The notes under the pieces: generated by a model
Told to the model about the DNA's origin: nothing
Database searches by the model: none
What the model saw: only the letters and a program-made list of their open reading frames with translations
Position numbers and translations under genes: made by a program
NCBI GenBank assembly: GCA_944391315.1
Contig: CALXTD010000010.1
Location: 1-51,495, forward strand
Source of the DNA: an uncultured Alphaproteobacteria bacterium
GTDB lineage: Bacteria; Pseudomonadota; Alphaproteobacteria; RF32; CAG-239
Direction of reading: 5' to 3'
Length of the DNA stretch: 51,495 nt
Shown here: one piece after another, positions 630-51,220 of the stretch
Layout: each line of letters starts with the position of its first letter
How positions within the stretch are numbered: position 1 is the first letter of the stretch

Positions 630-3539
630 CTATTTTCTTTCGGTCTTATCCATCGGCAACGGTTCTTTTGATCCGCTGTTGAACAAAATAGCCTCACTGA
701 TAGCCGTGTTCTTGACCGGAATATCAGTAATCTGCTTACCACAAATTTCAAGTCCGACACTCTTAAGAGCTGTCGCAATCGGCAAGAACAAGTCTGTATT
801 TTCACCACTTGCACCTGAATGAGCAAATCCGGTGATCGTACCGTCTTTATCAATCAAAGCACCGCCCAGCGTAATATTTTGAACATAAGTATCAAGCAAG
901 ATTTCCGTACCTCTGTTCTCGCTGTAACGATAACCTTTAATCTTGCCGGAATCTTCCAGATAACCCTCACCGGTATCAAAGTCAAGAATACCAAGACTCA
1001 TATAAGTCTTCTGGTTAATCGGCGGCAAAGACAAATTGAGCGACAGCGGCGTATACTCAGTCTTTCTGTCAAGATAGAGCAAAGCCGTATTCTTATCAGG
1101 ATTAATTCTGACCGCATAACCGGTAAATTGACCACCATTAATCGTGCGCAGATTATAACTGTTGTTATCTTTGGTAATCAAGTCGGCAGAAGTCAAAACA
1201 AACTGATCAGAAACAATCAAGCCCGCACCTTCTTTACCATTGGCATTAGTAATTGAGATAATTGAAGTACGAACCTTATAAACATCTTCGGCAGAAAGCG
1301 GAATGGTATAAGGCGCACGCTCAACAATGCAAAGCATATTCTGAGCTTCGATAGCATTTTTATCATCAACAGGAACATTGACCCAAGTCTCTTTACTCAA
1401 AGAACCACTGGCTTTAACACCGCCGTCTTCTTCAATGCTAACCGGAATCTTGCACATCTTGTCATCTTCATCACAACAGGTGTTAAAGATGCTATCACAC
1501 TTATCGCAAGGTTCATTAAGCTTGTTGTCTTCACAACCGCCATAAAATTTATTCGGCTCACATCCGCCGTAAATCTTATTATTGCAGTCGCAATCCGGCC
1601 CAAACAAAGTCATGTTGTTACACGGCGTTGCCGGAGCATCTGAAGTTAAAGCGGCAATTGGAGCAGCCACAGCAGCAATCGGAGCACCGACAACGGCTAA
1701 TAACGGAGAAATACCCTCGCCATCTTTAACTTCTTTTGAATAACGTTCATCAGACGGAACCGGACTAATGCTTGGGTCAAGCGGCTCAGGAGCAGCTTCT
1801 TTACTCAACAAAATATCTGCAGGCTCAGCAACCGGTTGCTCTGTAACAACAGTTTCCTCAACCACAGTTTCTTCCAAATCAAGATTGTTCAAAACAGTTG
1901 GTTGAGTATCTGCAGCAGGTTGTGCCACTGGAGCAGGAACAGGTGCTGAAAGCGGAGCCGGCGCAGGTTCAGGAGCCTGCATCGGAGCAGGTTGCGGCGC
2001 AGCCATTGGAGCCGGCGCAGGTTCAGGAGCCTGCATTGGAGCAGGTTGTGGAGCAGCCATCGGGGCCGGAGCCGGCATTGGAGCCGGTTGTGAGGCTGAC
2101 ATCGGGACTGGAGCCGACTGTGGCATTGGAGCCGGTTGCGGCGTCGGAAGTGGCGGAACCGGCGTAAGCGCAGAACCAACTTCGGGCTGTTTATTTTCTA
2201 ACGGAATCAACGGTTGTTCAGCTTTGGGAGGAACAACCGGACTTGGCATAACCGGTTTATCATCAGGCGTATAAACATATTTTGTAACACTGTTTTTACG
2301 AGCTTCATGATCAGTGTATTGACACTTAATCGGATTATGGGCTTTTTCGTGTTCAATATACTGAATCCGCTGGCTTTCTTTTTCAGCAGATGTGAAACGA
2401 TGAGAAACAACCTTCAAGAAAGCCGGATGGCTGCGAAGATTGTTAGCCGCATCAGCAAAAGCTTTTTCAACCAACAAAACCTCACCATTAGGCTCACCGC
2501 GCATCAAATCAGCATAACCATCAGTCTCACCTGACCAATAAATAACTTCTCGATTAATATCGGTAACCGTCCATTTAACCGTAATCTCCGAAGACCCGAT
2601 ACGGCTGTTTTCCATAATGGCTTCATTCCAATTATACTTATCACAAATATTCATAAAATAATTGGTGATTTCTGCCGTAATCAAATATTCCGGCAAGGGG
2701 CTCGGTGTTTCTTCAATACAAACATCATCAGGAATTTTAACAATATTGAAGCAGTCTTTAAGTTGATTATCAAAAACAGAAATAAGACGCATATTGCTTT
2801 CCATCAACCGCCCTTGGTTCAAAATCGCCTCTTTGGTAAAACGACGGCAACCAAAAATACGGAATCGATAATTTCCGAGCTTTTGCATCAAAGGACCGTT
2901 AATATCTTCATCATTGAGCTTAAAATCAACCCATTCTAACTGGATAGGCGCATACTGCCCACATTTTCCATGAATTTTATCATAAATGCTGCCGCTTGGA
3001 CGAACAACATAATTTTGCACAAAGTTATAGCGCACAACTTCTTTAACCTTAGCTTTTTTGGGCGCCCGCTGTTTGGCCTTGCATTTTTGAGGGTTAAGGG
3101 TGCAAGCCGAAGGCTGAACGGCAACTTTTTTATCGCAAAGAACAGGGTCATTGCCACAACCTTGCCCCGGAAAGATACTGTTATCTTGTCCGCTGCTCGC
3201 TTCACAGCAAGTACCGCCAAAAATGCTGCCGTCACGATAAGTCTTACCCTTAACCGTTACCACTGGAATATTTGCCGCTCTTCCATCCTGCTGAGGGTTC
3301 AAAGCTTCTTTGCGCTGCTGAATACGCGTTGTAACTTCACCGGCATATTTGCTTTTCTGATCAAAAAAGCCCATGCTCGAACTTGTATCGGTATATTCGG
3401 TCCGAATTTCTATTTCCCCGTTGCCATCATAAGCATTATTATCATATTGAGAAGCCCTAGAAGCCCTCAACGCAACAGCACTCACGCTCAGCGCCAAAAC
3501 AGAACAGGCCAACGGCTTGAAATAGCTATTTATTTTCAT
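630..3539 (-). CDS. Large secreted protein with degenerate trypsin-like C-terminal domain
   Basis: Predicted exported protein of 969 residues with no assigned function. Visible in order: a signal peptide (about residues 1-30, hydrophobic stretch before ALRASRA); a Cys-rich linker (about 100-165); a folded region (about 170-385) with beta-strand patterns such as ITVKWTVTDINREVIYWSG; a Pro/Ala/Gln/Met low-complexity stretch (about 430-550) that includes an 18-residue tandem repeat; a second Cys-rich stretch (about 640-700) with repeated GGCE-NK motifs; and a trypsin/HtrA-like domain (about 750-940). In that last domain the expected TAAH motif reads TSAD and the expected GNSGG reads TLGG, so the catalytic His and Ser both seem to be missing. 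A role as binding or scaffold protein is inference. The start at 3539 has GGAG 7 nt upstream; it follows comM by 12 bp. Confidence 0.75.
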   Translation of the reverse strand: MKINSYFKPLACSVLALSVSAVALRASRASQYDNNAYDGNGEIEIRTEYTDTSSSMGFFDQKSKYAGEVTTRIQQRKEALNPQQDGRAANIPVVTVKGKTYRDGSIFGGTCCEASSGQDNSIFPGQGCGNDPVLCDKKVAVQPSACTLNPQKCKAKQRAPKKAKVKEVVRYNFVQNYVVRPSGSIYDKIHGKCGQYAPIQLEWVDFKLNDEDINGPLMQKLGNYRFRIFGCRRFTKEAILNQGRLMESNMRLISVFDNQLKDCFNIVKIPDDVCIEETPSPLPEYLITAEITNYFMNICDKYNWNEAIMENSRIGSSEITVKWTVTDINREVIYWSGETDGYADLMRGEPNGEVLLVEKAFADAANNLRSHPAFLKVVSHRFTSAEKESQRIQYIEHEKAHNPIKCQYTDHEARKNSVTKYVYTPDDKPVMPSPVVPPKAEQPLIPLENKQPEVGSALTPVPPLPTPQPAPMPQSAPVPMSASQPAPMPAPAPMAAPQPAPMQAPEPAPAPMAAPQPAPMQAPEPAPAPLSAPVPAPVAQPAADTQPTVLNNLDLEETVVEETVVTEQPVAEPADILLSKEAAPEPLDPSISPVPSDERYSKEVKDGEGISPLLAVVGAPIAAVAAPIAALTSDAPATPCNNMTLFGPDCDCNNKIYGGCEPNKFYGGCEDNKLNEPCDKCDSIFNTCCDEDDKMCKIPVSIEEDGGVKASGSLSKETWVNVPVDDKNAIEAQNMLCIVERAPYTIPLSAEDVYKVRTSIISITNANGKEGAGLIVSDQFVLTSADLITKDNNSYNLRTINGGQFTGYAVRINPDKNTALLYLDRKTEYTPLSLNLSLPPINQKTYMSLGILDFDTGEGYLEDSGKIKGYRYSENRGTEILLDTYVQNITLGGALIDKDGTITGFAHSGASGENTDLFLPIATALKSVGLEICGKQITDIPVKNTAISEAILFNSGSKEPLPMDKTERK
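1954..2061 (-). repeat. Two tandem 54-bp coding repeats
   Basis: 1954-2007 and 2008-2061 are near-identical 54-bp units differing at a handful of positions. Each encodes 18 residues of the type PAPMAAPQPAPMQAPEPA inside the Pro/Ala linker of the 969-residue protein. Further degenerate units lie on both sides. Such linkers commonly vary in length between strains. Confidence 0.9.
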
Positions 3540-3551
3540 CAAAATACTCCA

Positions 3552-33407: not shown

Positions 33408-35456
33408 TTAAATTCCATAATGAAACAAGTTATAATACTTCTGAATAGCTCCTTCTGACCAACTAAAATCTTTCTTCATGGCAGCCATTTTCATCGCGGA
33501 TATAATATCTGGATTTCGATAAAAAATTTCAAGCACATTTTTCAACATATCCGCAAAAGCATTCACGTTATTTTTAAGCCTTTGTGCAGCCAAATTACTA
33601 CCATAAACACGGCTTTTTCCAACAAAAAATACCTCTGTTCGAAAACCGTCCACACCATTGGTGATTGTATCAACCAACCCGCCTGTTGACATAGCCAAAG
33701 GCAAAGCCCCTTTTGCCATCGCCTCCATCTGGGTCAAACCACAAGGCTCAAAGCGGCAAGGCATCAAATAAAAATCTGAAGCAAGTTGTGCGGCATAAGC
33801 CAGCTCATCTTTATACCCATGAAAGAGAATTATTCTTTCACCAAGCTTTGGATTCGCAAGGCTAACTTCATCTTTAACTCGTTTCAAATACTCAAAAATC
33901 TCAGCATCACCGGCTCCCCCCAATACAAAAATCGGAAAAGACCCACTGAAATTAACTTTTTTGGTCTTCTGAGCCAAGCGCAGCAAAGCATCAGCCACAA
34001 TATCATAGCCTTTTTGCTCAACCATTCGACTTGTGGCACAAAGGACCGGTGTCTTATCAAAATCATCAATCGACTTTGACAAATCTTTAAGCTTATAAAA
34101 TTCAACTGCCGGAAATTTTTCTTTCCGAAGAGCTTCATCTTTGGCCAATCGACCGATAAGGTTTAGAAAAGCCTTTTTGTTCTGTGTTTTCTTAGCTAAC
34201 GAATTTTCATCAAACACACAAAACTCATTTGTATCAAAAAAGCGATTTAACTGCTCAATTTTAGCCGCATTCGGAGCAATTTTCACTTTATCATAACCAT
34301 TAACGATTCCAAGAAAGGTTCTATGGTCTTTTCTGATTTTAAGAATATCGCGAAAATCCCAACCAAATTCCAAAAACCGAGAAACTTCTTCCAAATAATT
34401 TTTAGACACTGTCACCACACGGTCAGCCAAATGCAAACTACATGCTGCTTGGTTATAACAGTCATAAACGATGAGTGTATTTTGCGTTCTCGGATTCGCA
34501 TTTTTAACGGCTTTTGCGTTTTTATAAATCAGATTTGCCGCATATTCATAAGCCGAATTCAGCAACCGACGTGTATTTTTATAATCCCAACCTTGATAAC
34601 CAAGATGATGAGCAATGTGAATAATCGGCAAATTTCTAAGCTTTTCACCTAAAGCGGAATCCATCACTCCTTGCTCTTCTTGCGCAAAGGTAAAATATTT
34701 GAGCAAACCGGCCAACTCACCGCAGTGCCAATCATTTGCCACAATCATATTTGGATAAGCTAACGGATTATAGCTGTTTTCTGCCACATCTTTCAGCAAG
34801 ACATAAATCGCTTTTGAGAAAAAGGCAAAACGCTCAACCTCATTAACCCCATTTTCATTAAGCACATAGCAACCACCTTGTGCTGAAGGATTGTTTTTAT
34901 GAGGATTAATTGAAAAAAAACGGTTATTTTCCAATAAAATATAATCCACGCCATCCAAACTGGTTTGATAAACCACAACCCGATGGTTTGAAAGTTTGTT
35001 TTCTTCAATAATGAACGGAACCTCAATAGTGGTCAAACGCTTAAGCTGAGCCTTTTTTCCTTCTGCGCCGATATAAACAAGCGTTTCAGAATTAAACTCT
35101 GCCTTCTTTTTTCCGGTATCACCAACATAGAGCGGGGTAACAACTTTTATATTGTCACCTTCATTTCCATAAGTCCGATTATAAGCTTCCGGCAATTCTG
35201 AGGCAATAACCCCCAGTCCGCCCATTTTCATAAAACTTGCAGTTTCGGCACTCACCATCCAAGCATCAAGCTTTCCCGAAAGCGGCCAAATTTCTTTACC
35301 ATAACATTGTGTACGAGCAAGTTGTTGAATTTCACGAGTAATATAAGTTGTCGGAATAAAAAAGCGTTGAGAATTTTTTTTGCGATTAAACAATGGCGGC
35401 AGCATTTTGAAATTAGACATTACAAAAATTTCTTCAGTACCGGCACCCATCGACAT
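33408..35456 (-). CDS. glgA: Glycogen/starch synthase, GT5 family, with N-terminal extension
   Basis: Transfers glucose from a nucleotide sugar to growing glycogen. At 682 residues it is about 200 longer than usual GlgA. The family start, normally at residue 1-10, is WMVSAETASFMKMGGLGVIASELP at about residue 70; KxGGL is the nucleotide-sugar motif. The C-terminal domain has TSRMVEQKGYDIVADALLRL and MPCRFEPCGLTQMEAMAKGALPLAMSTGGLVDTI, with the catalytic Glu in FEPCGL. The first 65 residues (MSMGAGTEEIF, FFIPTTYITREIQQLARTQCYG) match nothing I know. The start at 35456 has AAGGG 5 nt upstream. No other glycogen gene is nearby; synthesis of a storage polysaccharide is inferred. Confidence 0.88.
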   Translation of the reverse strand: MSMGAGTEEIFVMSNFKMLPPLFNRKKNSQRFFIPTTYITREIQQLARTQCYGKEIWPLSGKLDAWMVSAETASFMKMGGLGVIASELPEAYNRTYGNEGDNIKVVTPLYVGDTGKKKAEFNSETLVYIGAEGKKAQLKRLTTIEVPFIIEENKLSNHRVVVYQTSLDGVDYILLENNRFFSINPHKNNPSAQGGCYVLNENGVNEVERFAFFSKAIYVLLKDVAENSYNPLAYPNMIVANDWHCGELAGLLKYFTFAQEEQGVMDSALGEKLRNLPIIHIAHHLGYQGWDYKNTRRLLNSAYEYAANLIYKNAKAVKNANPRTQNTLIVYDCYNQAACSLHLADRVVTVSKNYLEEVSRFLEFGWDFRDILKIRKDHRTFLGIVNGYDKVKIAPNAAKIEQLNRFFDTNEFCVFDENSLAKKTQNKKAFLNLIGRLAKDEALRKEKFPAVEFYKLKDLSKSIDDFDKTPVLCATSRMVEQKGYDIVADALLRLAQKTKKVNFSGSFPIFVLGGAGDAEIFEYLKRVKDEVSLANPKLGERIILFHGYKDELAYAAQLASDFYLMPCRFEPCGLTQMEAMAKGALPLAMSTGGLVDTITNGVDGFRTEVFFVGKSRVYGSNLAAQRLKNNVNAFADMLKNVLEIFYRNPDIISAMKMAAMKKDFSWSEGAIQKYYNLFHYGI

Positions 35457-35485
35457 ATTTCCCTTCAATTAAAAAACGCTTTGCT

Positions 35486-46938: not shown

Positions 46939-47573
46939 CATATCCGCTTATCAGCTGAATGACAAAATTCTTTGATCGGACATTTGTCACAATCTGGCTT
47001 CTGCGCCTTGCAAATATAACGCCCGAAAAGAACCAACCAATGATTAGCATTTTTAACATAATTATCCGGTAGAACGGAAAGCAAATCTTTTTCCACCTCA
47101 AGCGGCGTTTTCCCTTGGCTAAAATCAAGCCGATGAGCGATTCTAAAAACATGGGTATCCACTGCCAAAGTCGGCTGATTAAACCATACATTAAGCACCA
47201 CATTTGCGGTTTTACGCCCCACGCCGGATAGTTTTTCCAAAGCTTCGCGATTCGCCGGAACTTCAGAATTATATTTTTCCACCAACTCTTGAGAAAGCGC
47301 GATAATACTTTTGGCTTTGTTATTATAAAGACCAATGGTCTTGATATAAGATTTTAAGTTTTCCAAACCAAGAGAAAGCATTTTCTGCGGCGTATCAGCA
47401 ATTTTGAACAACGATTCTGTCGCGCGATTAACCCCCTTGTCGGTAGATTGCGCCGAGAGCACAACCGCCACCAAAAGCGTATAAGCATTATGAAAATTAA
47501 GCTCGCACCGTGGATTCGGATCAAGCTTATCAAACACCGCCATAATATCGAGAATTTCTTTTTTACTGCGCAT
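46938..47573 (-). CDS. nth: Endonuclease III
   Basis: DNA glycosylase/AP lyase removing oxidised pyrimidines. The 211-residue protein has the helix-hairpin-helix LSGVGRKTANVVLN with the catalytic Lys in GRK, the catalytic Asp in VDTHVFRIAHR, and the 4Fe-4S ligand spacing C-x6-C-x2-C-x5-C in CKAQKPDCDKCPIKEFC. It is coupled to tsaD: its ATG overlaps the tsaD stop by one base (TAATG). Confidence 0.96.
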   Translation of the reverse strand: MRSKKEILDIMAVFDKLDPNPRCELNFHNAYTLLVAVVLSAQSTDKGVNRATESLFKIADTPQKMLSLGLENLKSYIKTIGLYNNKAKSIIALSQELVEKYNSEVPANREALEKLSGVGRKTANVVLNVWFNQPTLAVDTHVFRIAHRLDFSQGKTPLEVEKDLLSVLPDNYVKNANHWLVLFGRYICKAQKPDCDKCPIKEFCHSADKRI

Positions 47574-48649
47574 TAGGCCTTCACTCCGCCGGCACCGGCT
47601 GCTTTCGGAGCATTTTCATCTAAAGGCCAGCGCGGACGCGGCTTAAAGTCCAAAGAATTGGTTAGCCCCTTTTGAAAACGCTCTAACCCTGCCCAAGCAA
47701 TCATAACGCCGTTATCAGTGCAGTAACGAATAGGAGGTGCGGCAAAAGTCAATTTGTTATTCTTAGCCAAACGCTCCAGTGCCATACGCAAATAAGAATT
47801 TGCTGCCACCCCTCCGGCAACAACAAGGTCGTTTCCATCAGGATAATTAGATTTAAAATATTTTATGGCTTTCTCGAGCTTAATAAGCAAACACTCGGTT
47901 GCCGTTTTCTGAAAACAAGCACAAATATCCGCCACATCTTGCTTTGGCAAAATCGCATGTTCCACTTTTCCATCAGGAGAATAAGATTCGATGATTTTTC
48001 GCACAGCTGTTTTCAGACCGGAGAAAGAAAGGTTCAAATCACCGGAGTTTTGCAACGGATGCGGCAGAGTAAAACGATTCTCATTCCCTTGATCGGCAAG
48101 TTTTTCAATCATTGGTCCACCGGGATAACCTAAATTAAGCATCTTTGCCACTTTATCAAAAGCCTCACCGGCCGCATCATCAATCGTTGTGCCCAAACGT
48201 TCATATTGACCGACATCTTTCACCACCAAAATCTGACAATGCCCGCCAGAAACCAATAATAACAAATAAGGATAAGTCACACCGGCGGTTAAGCGTGCAG
48301 TCAGGGCGTGCCCTTCAAGGTGATTAACCGCCACAAAGGGCTTATTAAGAGCCAAAGCCAAAGCCTTTGCCGCCATAACACCGACCACAACGCCACCAAT
48401 AAGACCCGGACCGGAAGAAGCCGCAATCGCATCTAGCTCTTGTGGCTTAACACCGGCTTTCTTTAACGTAAGCTCAATAATTTCATCAATATGCTCCAAA
48501 TGAGCGCGTGCCGCTACTTCCGGCACCACCCCGCCAAATTTTTTATGTTCTTCTTGCGAGAGCACAACTTCGCCCAAAATTTCTCTATCATCAGAAACAA
48601 CGGCGGCGGCTGTTTCATCACAGCTGCTCTCAATACCTAAAACAATCAT
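47573..48649 (-). CDS. tsaD: tRNA threonylcarbamoyladenosine synthase TsaD
   Basis: Transfers the threonylcarbamoyl group to A37 of ANN-decoding tRNAs. The 358-residue protein has GIESSCDETAAAVV at the start, the metal motif HLEGHALTARL (about 108-118), LLLVSGGHCQI, DDAAGEAFDKVAKMLNLGYPGGP and the closing CTDNGVMIAWAGLERF. It is divergent from the Mic60 homologue, a neighbourhood typical of alphaproteobacteria, and cotranscribed with nth. Confidence 0.97.
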   Translation of the reverse strand: MIVLGIESSCDETAAAVVSDDREILGEVVLSQEEHKKFGGVVPEVAARAHLEHIDEIIELTLKKAGVKPQELDAIAASSGPGLIGGVVVGVMAAKALALALNKPFVAVNHLEGHALTARLTAGVTYPYLLLLVSGGHCQILVVKDVGQYERLGTTIDDAAGEAFDKVAKMLNLGYPGGPMIEKLADQGNENRFTLPHPLQNSGDLNLSFSGLKTAVRKIIESYSPDGKVEHAILPKQDVADICACFQKTATECLLIKLEKAIKYFKSNYPDGNDLVVAGGVAANSYLRMALERLAKNNKLTFAAPPIRYCTDNGVMIAWAGLERFQKGLTNSLDFKPRPRWPLDENAPKAAGAGGVKA

Positions 48650-48738: not shown

Positions 48739-49797
48739 ATGAGCAAAAACAAAACACTCTCCTCCAACCCCAAAGTTGAAGAAATCAAAGAAAAACAAAT
48801 AGAAGAACAAGAAACTTCTTCTGAAGATAATACCGCCGCAAACAAAATGTATGGACACCTTATGGCAAGAATAGCCATGTGGATTATCTTTTTTGCCATA
48901 ATTGCCGGCTTATGGATAAAACCTGAGATATTGCAGCAAATAATTTCACATTTTGAAATGCCGCAACAAACAAACGCTGCCGGCGCGCCAAGTATCAAAC
49001 AGCTGGAAAAACAAATTTATAGCTTGCAAAACCAAATCAGAAACCTGCAAAGAACAACTTCAACCGGCAATTTTGATACCGAAAGCATAAAAGCTTTGAA
49101 TAACCGCATTTCAAATTTTGAAAAACAAAACATTGCGCTGATTGAAACCAAAGCCGACAAAGAAAGCCTAATGGGCATCATAAACCGCCTTGATCGTATT
49201 GAAGAACGCCTAAACAACATGGCAAAAATTTCTGATCAAGGTGCTTTGATATTATCTGCCGTTATGATGATTAAAGACAGCGCCGAAAAAGGCAACAGCT
49301 TTGAATACGAAGCCGAAATGCTGTCACAACTAACCGCGCAAGAAACTCAAATGCAAAATTCAGTAAGGATTATCAACAGCTACGCTCAAAGAAAAATCCC
49401 AAGCAAGCAAGAGCTGCAAGAAAAATTTGCTCAAGTCCGCAAAGTTGTAGAAAAAGCCGAACAAGAACGTGAGATAAAAGACAAAAACTGGAAAGAGCGC
49501 TTGAATATGAAATTTCAAGAAGTTGTCCAAATAAAACACACCAACCAACAAGAAAATGAAACAGCTCAACCGGATTTGCTGAGTGCAGCACAAAAAGAAG
49601 TCGATACCGGCCACTTTGCTCAAGCAATAACTTTGCTGAATGCATCACCGGACCTCGTTTCACAAAATCCGATTCTCCAAGAATGGATATCATCTGCTCA
49701 AACACATATTAGTTTTAATCAAGCCATATCTCAGCTCAGCAGCAGCTCTCTTGCCTTGATGAAACTCAACTATGTACAGACTAAAGCCGCAAACTAA
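48739..49797 (+). CDS. Mic60/mitofilin homologue
   Basis: Alphaproteobacterial Mic60-type protein; in relatives with intracytoplasmic membranes it shapes membrane curvature. The 352-residue protein has a charged cytoplasmic N-terminus (1-43), one membrane helix (MWIIFFAIIAGLWI, about 47-60), a long periplasmic coiled coil (about 85-175 and 220-265), and the C-terminal mitofilin signature: NWKERLNMKFQEVVQIK then SAAQKEVDTGHFAQAITLLNASPDL and EWISSAQTHISFNQAISQL. Length is typical. In most alphaproteobacteria hemC and hemD lie between tsaD and this gene; both are missing here. It may be cotranscribed with the ADP-dependent kinase 25 nt downstream. Confidence 0.85.
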   Translation: MSKNKTLSSNPKVEEIKEKQIEEQETSSEDNTAANKMYGHLMARIAMWIIFFAIIAGLWIKPEILQQIISHFEMPQQTNAAGAPSIKQLEKQIYSLQNQIRNLQRTTSTGNFDTESIKALNNRISNFEKQNIALIETKADKESLMGIINRLDRIEERLNNMAKISDQGALILSAVMMIKDSAEKGNSFEYEAEMLSQLTAQETQMQNSVRIINSYAQRKIPSKQELQEKFAQVRKVVEKAEQEREIKDKNWKERLNMKFQEVVQIKHTNQQENETAQPDLLSAAQKEVDTGHFAQAITLLNASPDLVSQNPILQEWISSAQTHISFNQAISQLSSSSLALMKLNYVQTKAAN

Positions 49798-49822
49798 ACA
49801 ACTTTATATAAGGATAAAAGAA

Positions 49823-51220
49823 ATGGAAAATCAGGAACTAAAAAAACTCTGGCTCAAAAATTTTTCAACCGTACCTGAAACTTTGAAAAGAATGAAAGAA
49901 GTCGGAGCTGTAGCCACCGCGTTTAATACAAATATTGACGCCGTTCTTAAGGTCAGCGGCAAAAAAATCGTAGAGTTAGCAAAACAACTCGGACTTGGGT
50001 TAAAAGAACTTGAAGACATCAAACAAACCAAACTTGAACAACCATCTGATGTTTTGAAAGGGCTTTTCAAATGTTTCAAAAATGGCATTGCCGAAGAATG
50101 GTTAACCGAAGACACTTTAGTTTATGACTGGATGGTCGAAAACTTAGGTTATGACCGCCTCCAAATGGGAGGACAAGGCGGCATTGTAGCAAATGCTTTG
50201 GCCGTTACCGGCGTCCAAAAAGTTTATGCCCACACCAATTCTTTGCCCAAACTTCAAGCAGAACAGTTTTTAAAAAGAGAAAACCTGATGTCCTTTGACC
50301 ATGAAGGCAAAGAAAAACCGGCTTACAGCATTAACCGCGAAGTTGATATTCCGTTGATTCACTGGATTCTCGAATTTGATAAAAACGACAGCGTCGAACT
50401 TGATGGAAAAACCTTCACTTGTCCGAAGTCAAACCGCTTTATTGCAACTTATGACCCGCTCAATTTGCATTTAGTCATGGACGAACACTTCGTAAACAAT
50501 ATGGCCAAGAAAAAAATTGATTACATTGTCTTATCCGGATTCCATGCTTTGACCGAAAAAAATAACGGCGTCAAATTGCAAGATGATGCTCTTCCGATTA
50601 TCAAAGGCTGGAAAGACAACGGTGACTTAATTCACCTTGAAATTGCATCAACCCAAGACATTGCCGTCAGAAAAGCAATTATTAAAAAGATTGCTCCGAT
50701 TGTCGATTCTGTTGGCGTTAATGAGCGAGAAGCAATTGACATTCTTGAAGTCATCGGCTATGAGGACTTAGCAGAAAAATGTAACAAAGACACTCATAGT
50801 GTTAATATGTTTGAAGCAATATTAAACATCAAAAAACACATCAAAACACCGCGCATTCAGTTGCACATGTTTGGTTTATACATCACCATTCAAGACAAAG
50901 GTTATAAGGTTAAACCGGAAGAAAACTTAAGAGGCATGATGTTAGCTGCCACGGTTGCTGCCGGAAAGGCCGGAACCGGAAATATCAATGAGGAAAAGAA
51001 CCTTCTTTGGGCACAAGGACAAGAAGTATCGGATATCGGCTTAAATGAGTTGCGTGACCTGTCAGAGCATATTAAAAAGCCTGAACTATTAAGCCACGGC
51101 ATTGCAGAATTTGATGGCTTTGACATCATCGCCATTCCAACAATTTTGGTAGAAAAACCGGTAACTTTGGTCGGTATGGGCGATACCATTTCATCAATAT
51201 CACTGGTCGGTGCCAGATAA
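49823..51220 (+). CDS. ADP-dependent glucokinase/phosphofructokinase family protein
   Basis: Ribokinase-superfamily sugar kinase of the ADP-dependent type, known chiefly from euryarchaeal glycolysis and animal ADPGK; these phosphorylate glucose or fructose 6-phosphate with ADP. The 465-residue length fits (about 450-490). Motifs: NTNIDAVLKV near the start, RLQMGGQGGIVANALA (GG-x-GG-x-AN), the metal-binding NxxE in VGVNEREA, and the catalytic GxGD in VGMGDTISSISL (about 450). Glucose versus fructose 6-phosphate cannot be decided. Start 49823 has AAGGAT upstream and excludes a 17-residue extension overlapping the Mic60 gene. Terminator at 51238. Confidence 0.85.
   Translation: MENQELKKLWLKNFSTVPETLKRMKEVGAVATAFNTNIDAVLKVSGKKIVELAKQLGLGLKELEDIKQTKLEQPSDVLKGLFKCFKNGIAEEWLTEDTLVYDWMVENLGYDRLQMGGQGGIVANALAVTGVQKVYAHTNSLPKLQAEQFLKRENLMSFDHEGKEKPAYSINREVDIPLIHWILEFDKNDSVELDGKTFTCPKSNRFIATYDPLNLHLVMDEHFVNNMAKKKIDYIVLSGFHALTEKNNGVKLQDDALPIIKGWKDNGDLIHLEIASTQDIAVRKAIIKKIAPIVDSVGVNEREAIDILEVIGYEDLAEKCNKDTHSVNMFEAILNIKKHIKTPRIQLHMFGLYITIQDKGYKVKPEENLRGMMLAATVAAGKAGTGNINEEKNLLWAQGQEVSDIGLNELRDLSEHIKKPELLSHGIAEFDGFDIIAIPTILVEKPVTLVGMGDTISSISLVGAR

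Follow-up and report, generated by a model that had tools for sequence, protein, structure and literature searches.

An uncultured alphaproteobacterium very probably encodes an ADP-dependent glucokinase (ADP-GK) of the PF04587 family, the sole glucose kinase found in its genome. The gene lies in the 51495-nucleotide stretch of DNA analysed here (hereafter the window). Family, fold, motifs, glucokinase-type residues, distribution and the lack of a detectable Glk or ROK kinase were observed directly, and from these we infer the phosphate donor, the sugar and the physiological role. The enzyme would convert ADP and glucose to AMP and glucose 6-phosphate. As no other glucose kinase was detected, free glucose probably enters glycolysis through it.

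The gene is present as a single copy in a 1.53-Mb assembly that is 97.9% complete (Table 1). Its open frame spans 49772-51220 on the forward strand, and the start at 49823, chosen in the first-pass annotation, is to be preferred over 49772 because the ATGs of relatives align there, an AAGGA-type ribosome site lies shortly 5′ and the alternative ATG falls within the upstream gene. The host can be assigned to the alphaproteobacteria because the products of addA and addB in the window exceed the alphaproteobacterial equivalog cut-offs, and because ftsK, lptF/G and tsaD are also encoded there. The gene upstream of the kinase is called mitofilin-like from its position and layout, its product having no Pfam match. 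Screening the window for Rfam families returned zero matches.

Table 1. Positions of the predicted ADP-dependent glucokinase gene, its motif codons, its conserved neighbours and the PFK-A gene (window positions unless a locus is named).
Feature	Position	Strand	Basis
Predicted ADP-dependent glucokinase gene, 465 aa	49823..51220	+	PF04587 full length; fold; glucokinase-type residues
NxNxD, putative sugar-binding, codons of N35-T-N37-I-D39	49925..49939	+	Alignment to AncMsPFK N32, N34, D36
E92 codon, glutamate shared by glucokinases and bifunctional enzymes	50096..50098	+	Alignment; PMC7948494
L178-I-H180 codons, in place of PFK Lys and Asn	50354..50362	+	Alignment
D211 codon, in place of PFK Arg	50453..50455	+	Alignment
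HxE motif H271-L-E273, putative Mg-ADP site	50633..50641	+	Alignment
NxxE motif N300-E-R-E303	50720..50731	+	Alignment
GxGD motif G451-M-G-D454, putative catalytic base	51173..51184	+	Alignment
Mitofilin-like membrane protein gene, conserved neighbour	48739..49797	+	Synteny in g1, g3, g4, g6, g13
tsaD, conserved neighbour	47573..48649	-	PF00814; synteny in g1, g3, g4, g6, g13
PFK-A gene, only PFK of the genome	L053 5091-6173 (contig C1 61090-62172)	-	GGDGSMNI

The PF04587 family is mainly archaeal and animal. The Pfam profile (ADP_PFK_GK) matched residues 30-462 of the window protein over profile positions 3-429 of 430 (E 1.9e-74), with a score of 251.4 bits against a cut-off of 27. This bears out the initial proposal of an ADP-dependent glucokinase/phosphofructokinase family member in an alphaproteobacterium. 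The family motifs HxE, (N/D)xxE and GxGD were all present, the latter two, at N300-E303 and G451-D454, being motifs that the proposal had named. Matches were likewise obtained to the NCBIfam equivalog models of the archaeal ADP-PFK and ADP-GK enzymes (E 1e-58 to 1e-65), all below their cut-offs, with the ADP-GK models reaching 206 versus 387 bits and 197 versus 554 bits; these cut-offs serve for naming and are set for proteins closely related to the archaeal enzymes. Because the models match yet stay under cut-off, the window protein is, judged by its sequence, a divergent member, and the low score weakens the equivalog claim and not the family claim. The best PDB sequence match was 6c8z, the ancestral Methanosarcinales phosphofructokinase AncMsPFK (1.4e-64, 33% identity), and identity to characterised enzymes ranged from 28-33%.

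An AlphaFold2 model built from nine close relatives (pLDDT 84, pTM 0.83) showed the ribokinase-like domain plus small domain of the solved members, consistent with an enzyme made up of a large ribokinase-like domain and a small lid. When the model was compared with known structures using Foldseek and VIA-align, the top places were all taken by ADP-dependent sugar kinases. The best scores were to the ADP-glucokinases of P. horikoshii, T. litoralis and P. furiosus (Z 44.0, 42.8 and 42.5), with fructose 6-phosphate-bound AncMsPFK (6xio) just below at Z 42.0. Archaeal members spanned Z 34-44, mouse ADPGK (5ccf) shared the family fold at Z 31 with ~21% identity in the structural alignment, and other ribokinase-fold enzymes reached at most 22. 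The first-pass annotation had named a better match to another ribokinase branch as fatal to its reading; neither in the profile searches nor in the structural comparison did any such branch outscore PF04587. As modelled, the fold by itself does not discriminate glucokinase from phosphofructokinase.

The discrimination is made by the sugar-binding residues, which were previously mapped with AncMsPFK mutants (PMC7948494). In that numbering glucokinases share E90 with bifunctional enzymes, phosphofructokinases share K179, N181 and R212 with them, and N181 is replaced by histidine in a specific glucokinase (PMC7948494). Residues of the window protein were read from an alignment to 6c8z, in which a check row returned the published residues. 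The protein has glutamate at the E90 position (E92) and leucine, histidine and aspartate in place of Lys179, Asn181 and Arg212 (L178, H180 and D211), followed by H241 and by NxxE instead of DxxE. This set was identical in 27/27 alphaproteobacterial relatives examined, all of which, like the window protein, lack the Lys, Asn and Arg of fructose 6-phosphate binding. Where the window protein has L/H/D/H, phosphofructokinases and bifunctional enzymes show K/N/R/Q; the P. horikoshii phosphofructokinase has A, K, N and R at the specificity sites, and the P. horikoshii glucokinase differs from the window protein only by a cysteine at the K179 position. Since the glucokinase residue set is present and the residues binding fructose 6-phosphate are replaced, glucose is the predicted sugar and the protein is predicted to be an ADP-glucokinase and not an ADP-PFK. 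Of the double name given initially, the residues favour the glucokinase half over the phosphofructokinase half. Glucose would be contacted by D39, E92, Q118, H180 and H241, with N35 close by. The family and its motifs point to ADP as the phosphate donor, with Mg-ADP probably bound via HxE and NxxE and D454 of GxGD as the likely catalytic base.

The closest known counterparts are the Thermococcales ADP-glucokinases (5o0j, 1ua4, 4b8s; EC 2.7.1.147), which share the whole-chain fold (Z 42-44), the three motifs and the glucose-type residues E92, H180, D211 and H241; they differ in that identity is 29-32% and the host of the window protein is an alphaproteobacterium. A tree of 29 rows, without eukaryotic or other bacterial members and with long branches (alphaproteobacterial stem 2.15), placed the alphaproteobacterial clade on the Thermococcales glucokinase side of the split from phosphofructokinases (96/93). 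It pointed to no donor for a transfer.

Two other substrate assignments have to be weighed. The protein could be an ADP-dependent phosphofructokinase, or a bifunctional enzyme of the methanogen and Thermococcales type (6c8z, 5od2, 5k27, 1u2x), acting on fructose 6-phosphate; these enzymes share its family, fold and catalytic motifs, 6c8z gave the highest BLAST score, and the phosphofructokinase equivalog model TIGR02045 was among the best matches. However, all three residues that mark fructose 6-phosphate binding are replaced, as is DxxE, in the window protein and in every relative, and a PFK-A is already encoded in the genome, which makes this assignment very unlikely. It is also unlikely that the same fold serves another main substrate (mannose, glucosamine, galactose or a nucleoside) or another donor (ATP, CDP or GDP). 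Low identity to characterised members, the long stem branch, the missed NCBIfam cut-offs and the ROK kinases that accompany ADP-GK in many relatives would allow for it, but the glucose contacts are those of the P. horikoshii glucokinase except for leucine in place of cysteine at one site, and neither a Glk nor a ROK kinase was found in the genome. An ADP-glucokinase remains the preferred assignment.

ADP-GK was found in 102/126 genomes of the alphaproteobacterium's own family, covering 15/16 genera. Genus g12 mostly lacks the gene, which has mostly been lost there. A second family of the same order carries it (G865, 55% identity). Outside the family, a class sample of ~380 genomes contained a single carrier (G174, 55% identity), and a phylum sample contained only the genome itself (G000) plus a weak partial match in another family (G783, 53 bits), which was left out of the residue comparison. 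On the G174 contig, an iron-only hydrogenase and a NuoF-like subunit are encoded together with ADP-GK (L055 3402-6948), which points to anaerobic life. The genes tsaD and mitofilin-like adjoin ADP-GK in five genera (g1, g3, g4, g6 and g13), and the G+C content of the gene (40.2%) is native to the window (41.8%). The same tsaD-mitofilin-ADP-GK locus of alphaproteobacterial type occurs in a MAG labelled 'Lactobacillaceae bacterium' (JAISVX010000001.1, L030), whose label is probably wrong.

Because the gene is present in most genomes of the family, at a conserved locus and with native composition, it is an old, vertically inherited family trait that was present in the family ancestor. Its rarity elsewhere in the class makes a transfer into the ancestor of the lineage plausible. 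The acquisition by transfer suggested in the first reading is thus tenable as an old event, and not as a recent or isolated one. Searches for a donor gave no match among viral contigs and phages, and among plasmids only haloarchaeal matches at 23-27% identity. A binning contaminant or a recent archaeal transfer might be thought of, given a mainly archaeal family and one carrier outside the family among the class genomes. Both readings are contradicted, and exceedingly unlikely, since the contig consists of alphaproteobacterial genes, the kinase is family-wide, the locus recurs in five genera and the G+C content is native.

Profile searches of the genome for Glk (PF02685) and ROK (PF00480) gave no match. 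This absence, established by single-family profile searches of a 97.9% complete MAG, was repeated in most g1 genomes. A search with the profile of pyruvate phosphate dikinase (PPDK) found, besides PPDK itself, only a 756-aa GAF-containing protein of the EI-Ntr type and no sugar-type enzyme I of the PEP-phosphotransferase. A full ATP-dependent set, which together with ATP preference would have spoken against an ADP-driven role, is not what the genome shows: neither Glk nor ROK was detected, and the PFK-A that is present bears an ADP signature.

Some family members have a ROK kinase besides ADP-GK. Among genomes at least 98% complete, a full-length ROK occurred in 11/11 that lack ADP-GK, whereas a ROK or Glk occurred in 16/49 that have it (p 4e-5); within g12 a ROK was found in 18/18 ADP-GK-negative versus 3/6 positive genomes. 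A kinship-aware paired test on the tree, comprising 4 independent changes, did not find the exchange of ADP-GK and ROK significant, and the models that the ROK proteins matched best, although below cut-off, were those of N-acetylmannosamine kinase. Mutual replacement of ADP-GK and ROK/Glk was accordingly dropped to a lead. In g12 (G012, G034, G043 and others; L043, L102) the ADP-GK-negative genomes all retain ROK, and in two ADP-GK-positive g12 genomes (G124 and G869) the ROK scores higher and is apparently a different one.

The sequence GGDGSxxI is a signature of those PFK-As that depend on ADP; they occur mainly in cyanobacteria and in some alphaproteobacteria, and assays on the enzymes of Azospirillum and others confirmed the ADP dependence (PMC11609450). 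The PFK-A of the genome carries this signature as GGDGSMNI, and ADP use is predicted from it; its best NCBIfam model is PRK14071, annotated as ATP-dependent. Isoleucine was found in 39/41 readable PFK-A sequences of the family and valine in two, in a set that includes the genome's own sequence and counts three genomes twice. The rule is not watertight, as GGDGSxxI also occurs in an Ilyobacter plasmid PFK of uncharacterised donor use. Together, the two sequences suggest that both priming kinases of the genome use ADP. PPDK scored above its curated cut-off in the genome and in 53/56 family genomes, and pyruvate kinase is present in 55/56. The parts fit together because PPDK consumes AMP, the product of ADP kinases, and the kinases and PPDK would work together. 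AMP would most likely be recycled by PPDK (PEP + AMP + PPi to pyruvate + ATP + Pi) and adenylate kinase.

In the modified Embden-Meyerhof pathway of Thermococcales, an ADP-GK and an ADP-dependent PFK are combined with a third enzyme, which forms ATP out of AMP and PEP. The genome offers a matching trio: an ADP-GK and an ADP-dependent PFK, both predicted, and an enzyme converting AMP and PEP to ATP. It differs in that the predicted ADP-PFK is of the unrelated PFK-A fold (GGDGSxxI; PMC11609450 type), in that the AMP-using enzyme is PPDK, and in that pyruvate kinase is present too. We tentatively propose, with about as much to be said against it as for it, that in this family both ATP-spending steps of glycolysis are ADP-dependent through two unrelated folds (PF04587 ADP-GK and PFK-A-type ADP-PFK), with PPDK recycling AMP using PEP and pyrophosphate, as an independently assembled bacterial parallel to what is found in Thermococcales.

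In a review on glycolysis from 2025, ADP-glucokinase is placed under archaea and does not appear among the bacterial routes of glucose phosphorylation (PMC12965863), and the occurrence of the PF04587 family in bacteria was already noted (PMC7948494). We found no mention of ADP-GK in the literature on gut alphaproteobacteria and RF32. The enzyme family is thus already known, and what is new is its lineage-wide role and the pathway combination. ADP-GK is the rule across a family of small-genome uncultured alphaproteobacteria, and this genome has no detected ATP-dependent glucose kinase. The lineage may begin glycolysis without direct ATP expenditure; if its PFK-A is also ADP-dependent, it would be a natural test of ADP-primed glycolysis outside hot archaea. 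It would also offer a non-thermophilic ADP-glucokinase for assays.

Glycogen storage had been proposed initially from a glgA in the window. The gene in question (33408-35468, reverse strand) encodes a 685-aa glycosyltransferase that has the two synthase domains and exceeds the glgA model in length by ~200 aa. Its score of 203 bits falls short of the 328-bit cut-off, and it is a divergent glgA-like protein. Because of this low score, glycogen storage is at most weakly suggested. A 969-aa frame elsewhere in the window (630-3542, reverse strand) had no match in an NCBIfam search at E 1e-8. Adjoining pfkA (L053 812-5017) are three tandem cysteine-rich paralogues, probably secreted, that have in common a repeated C-terminal domain (GKTPIxVVVYK ... 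WSSSE).
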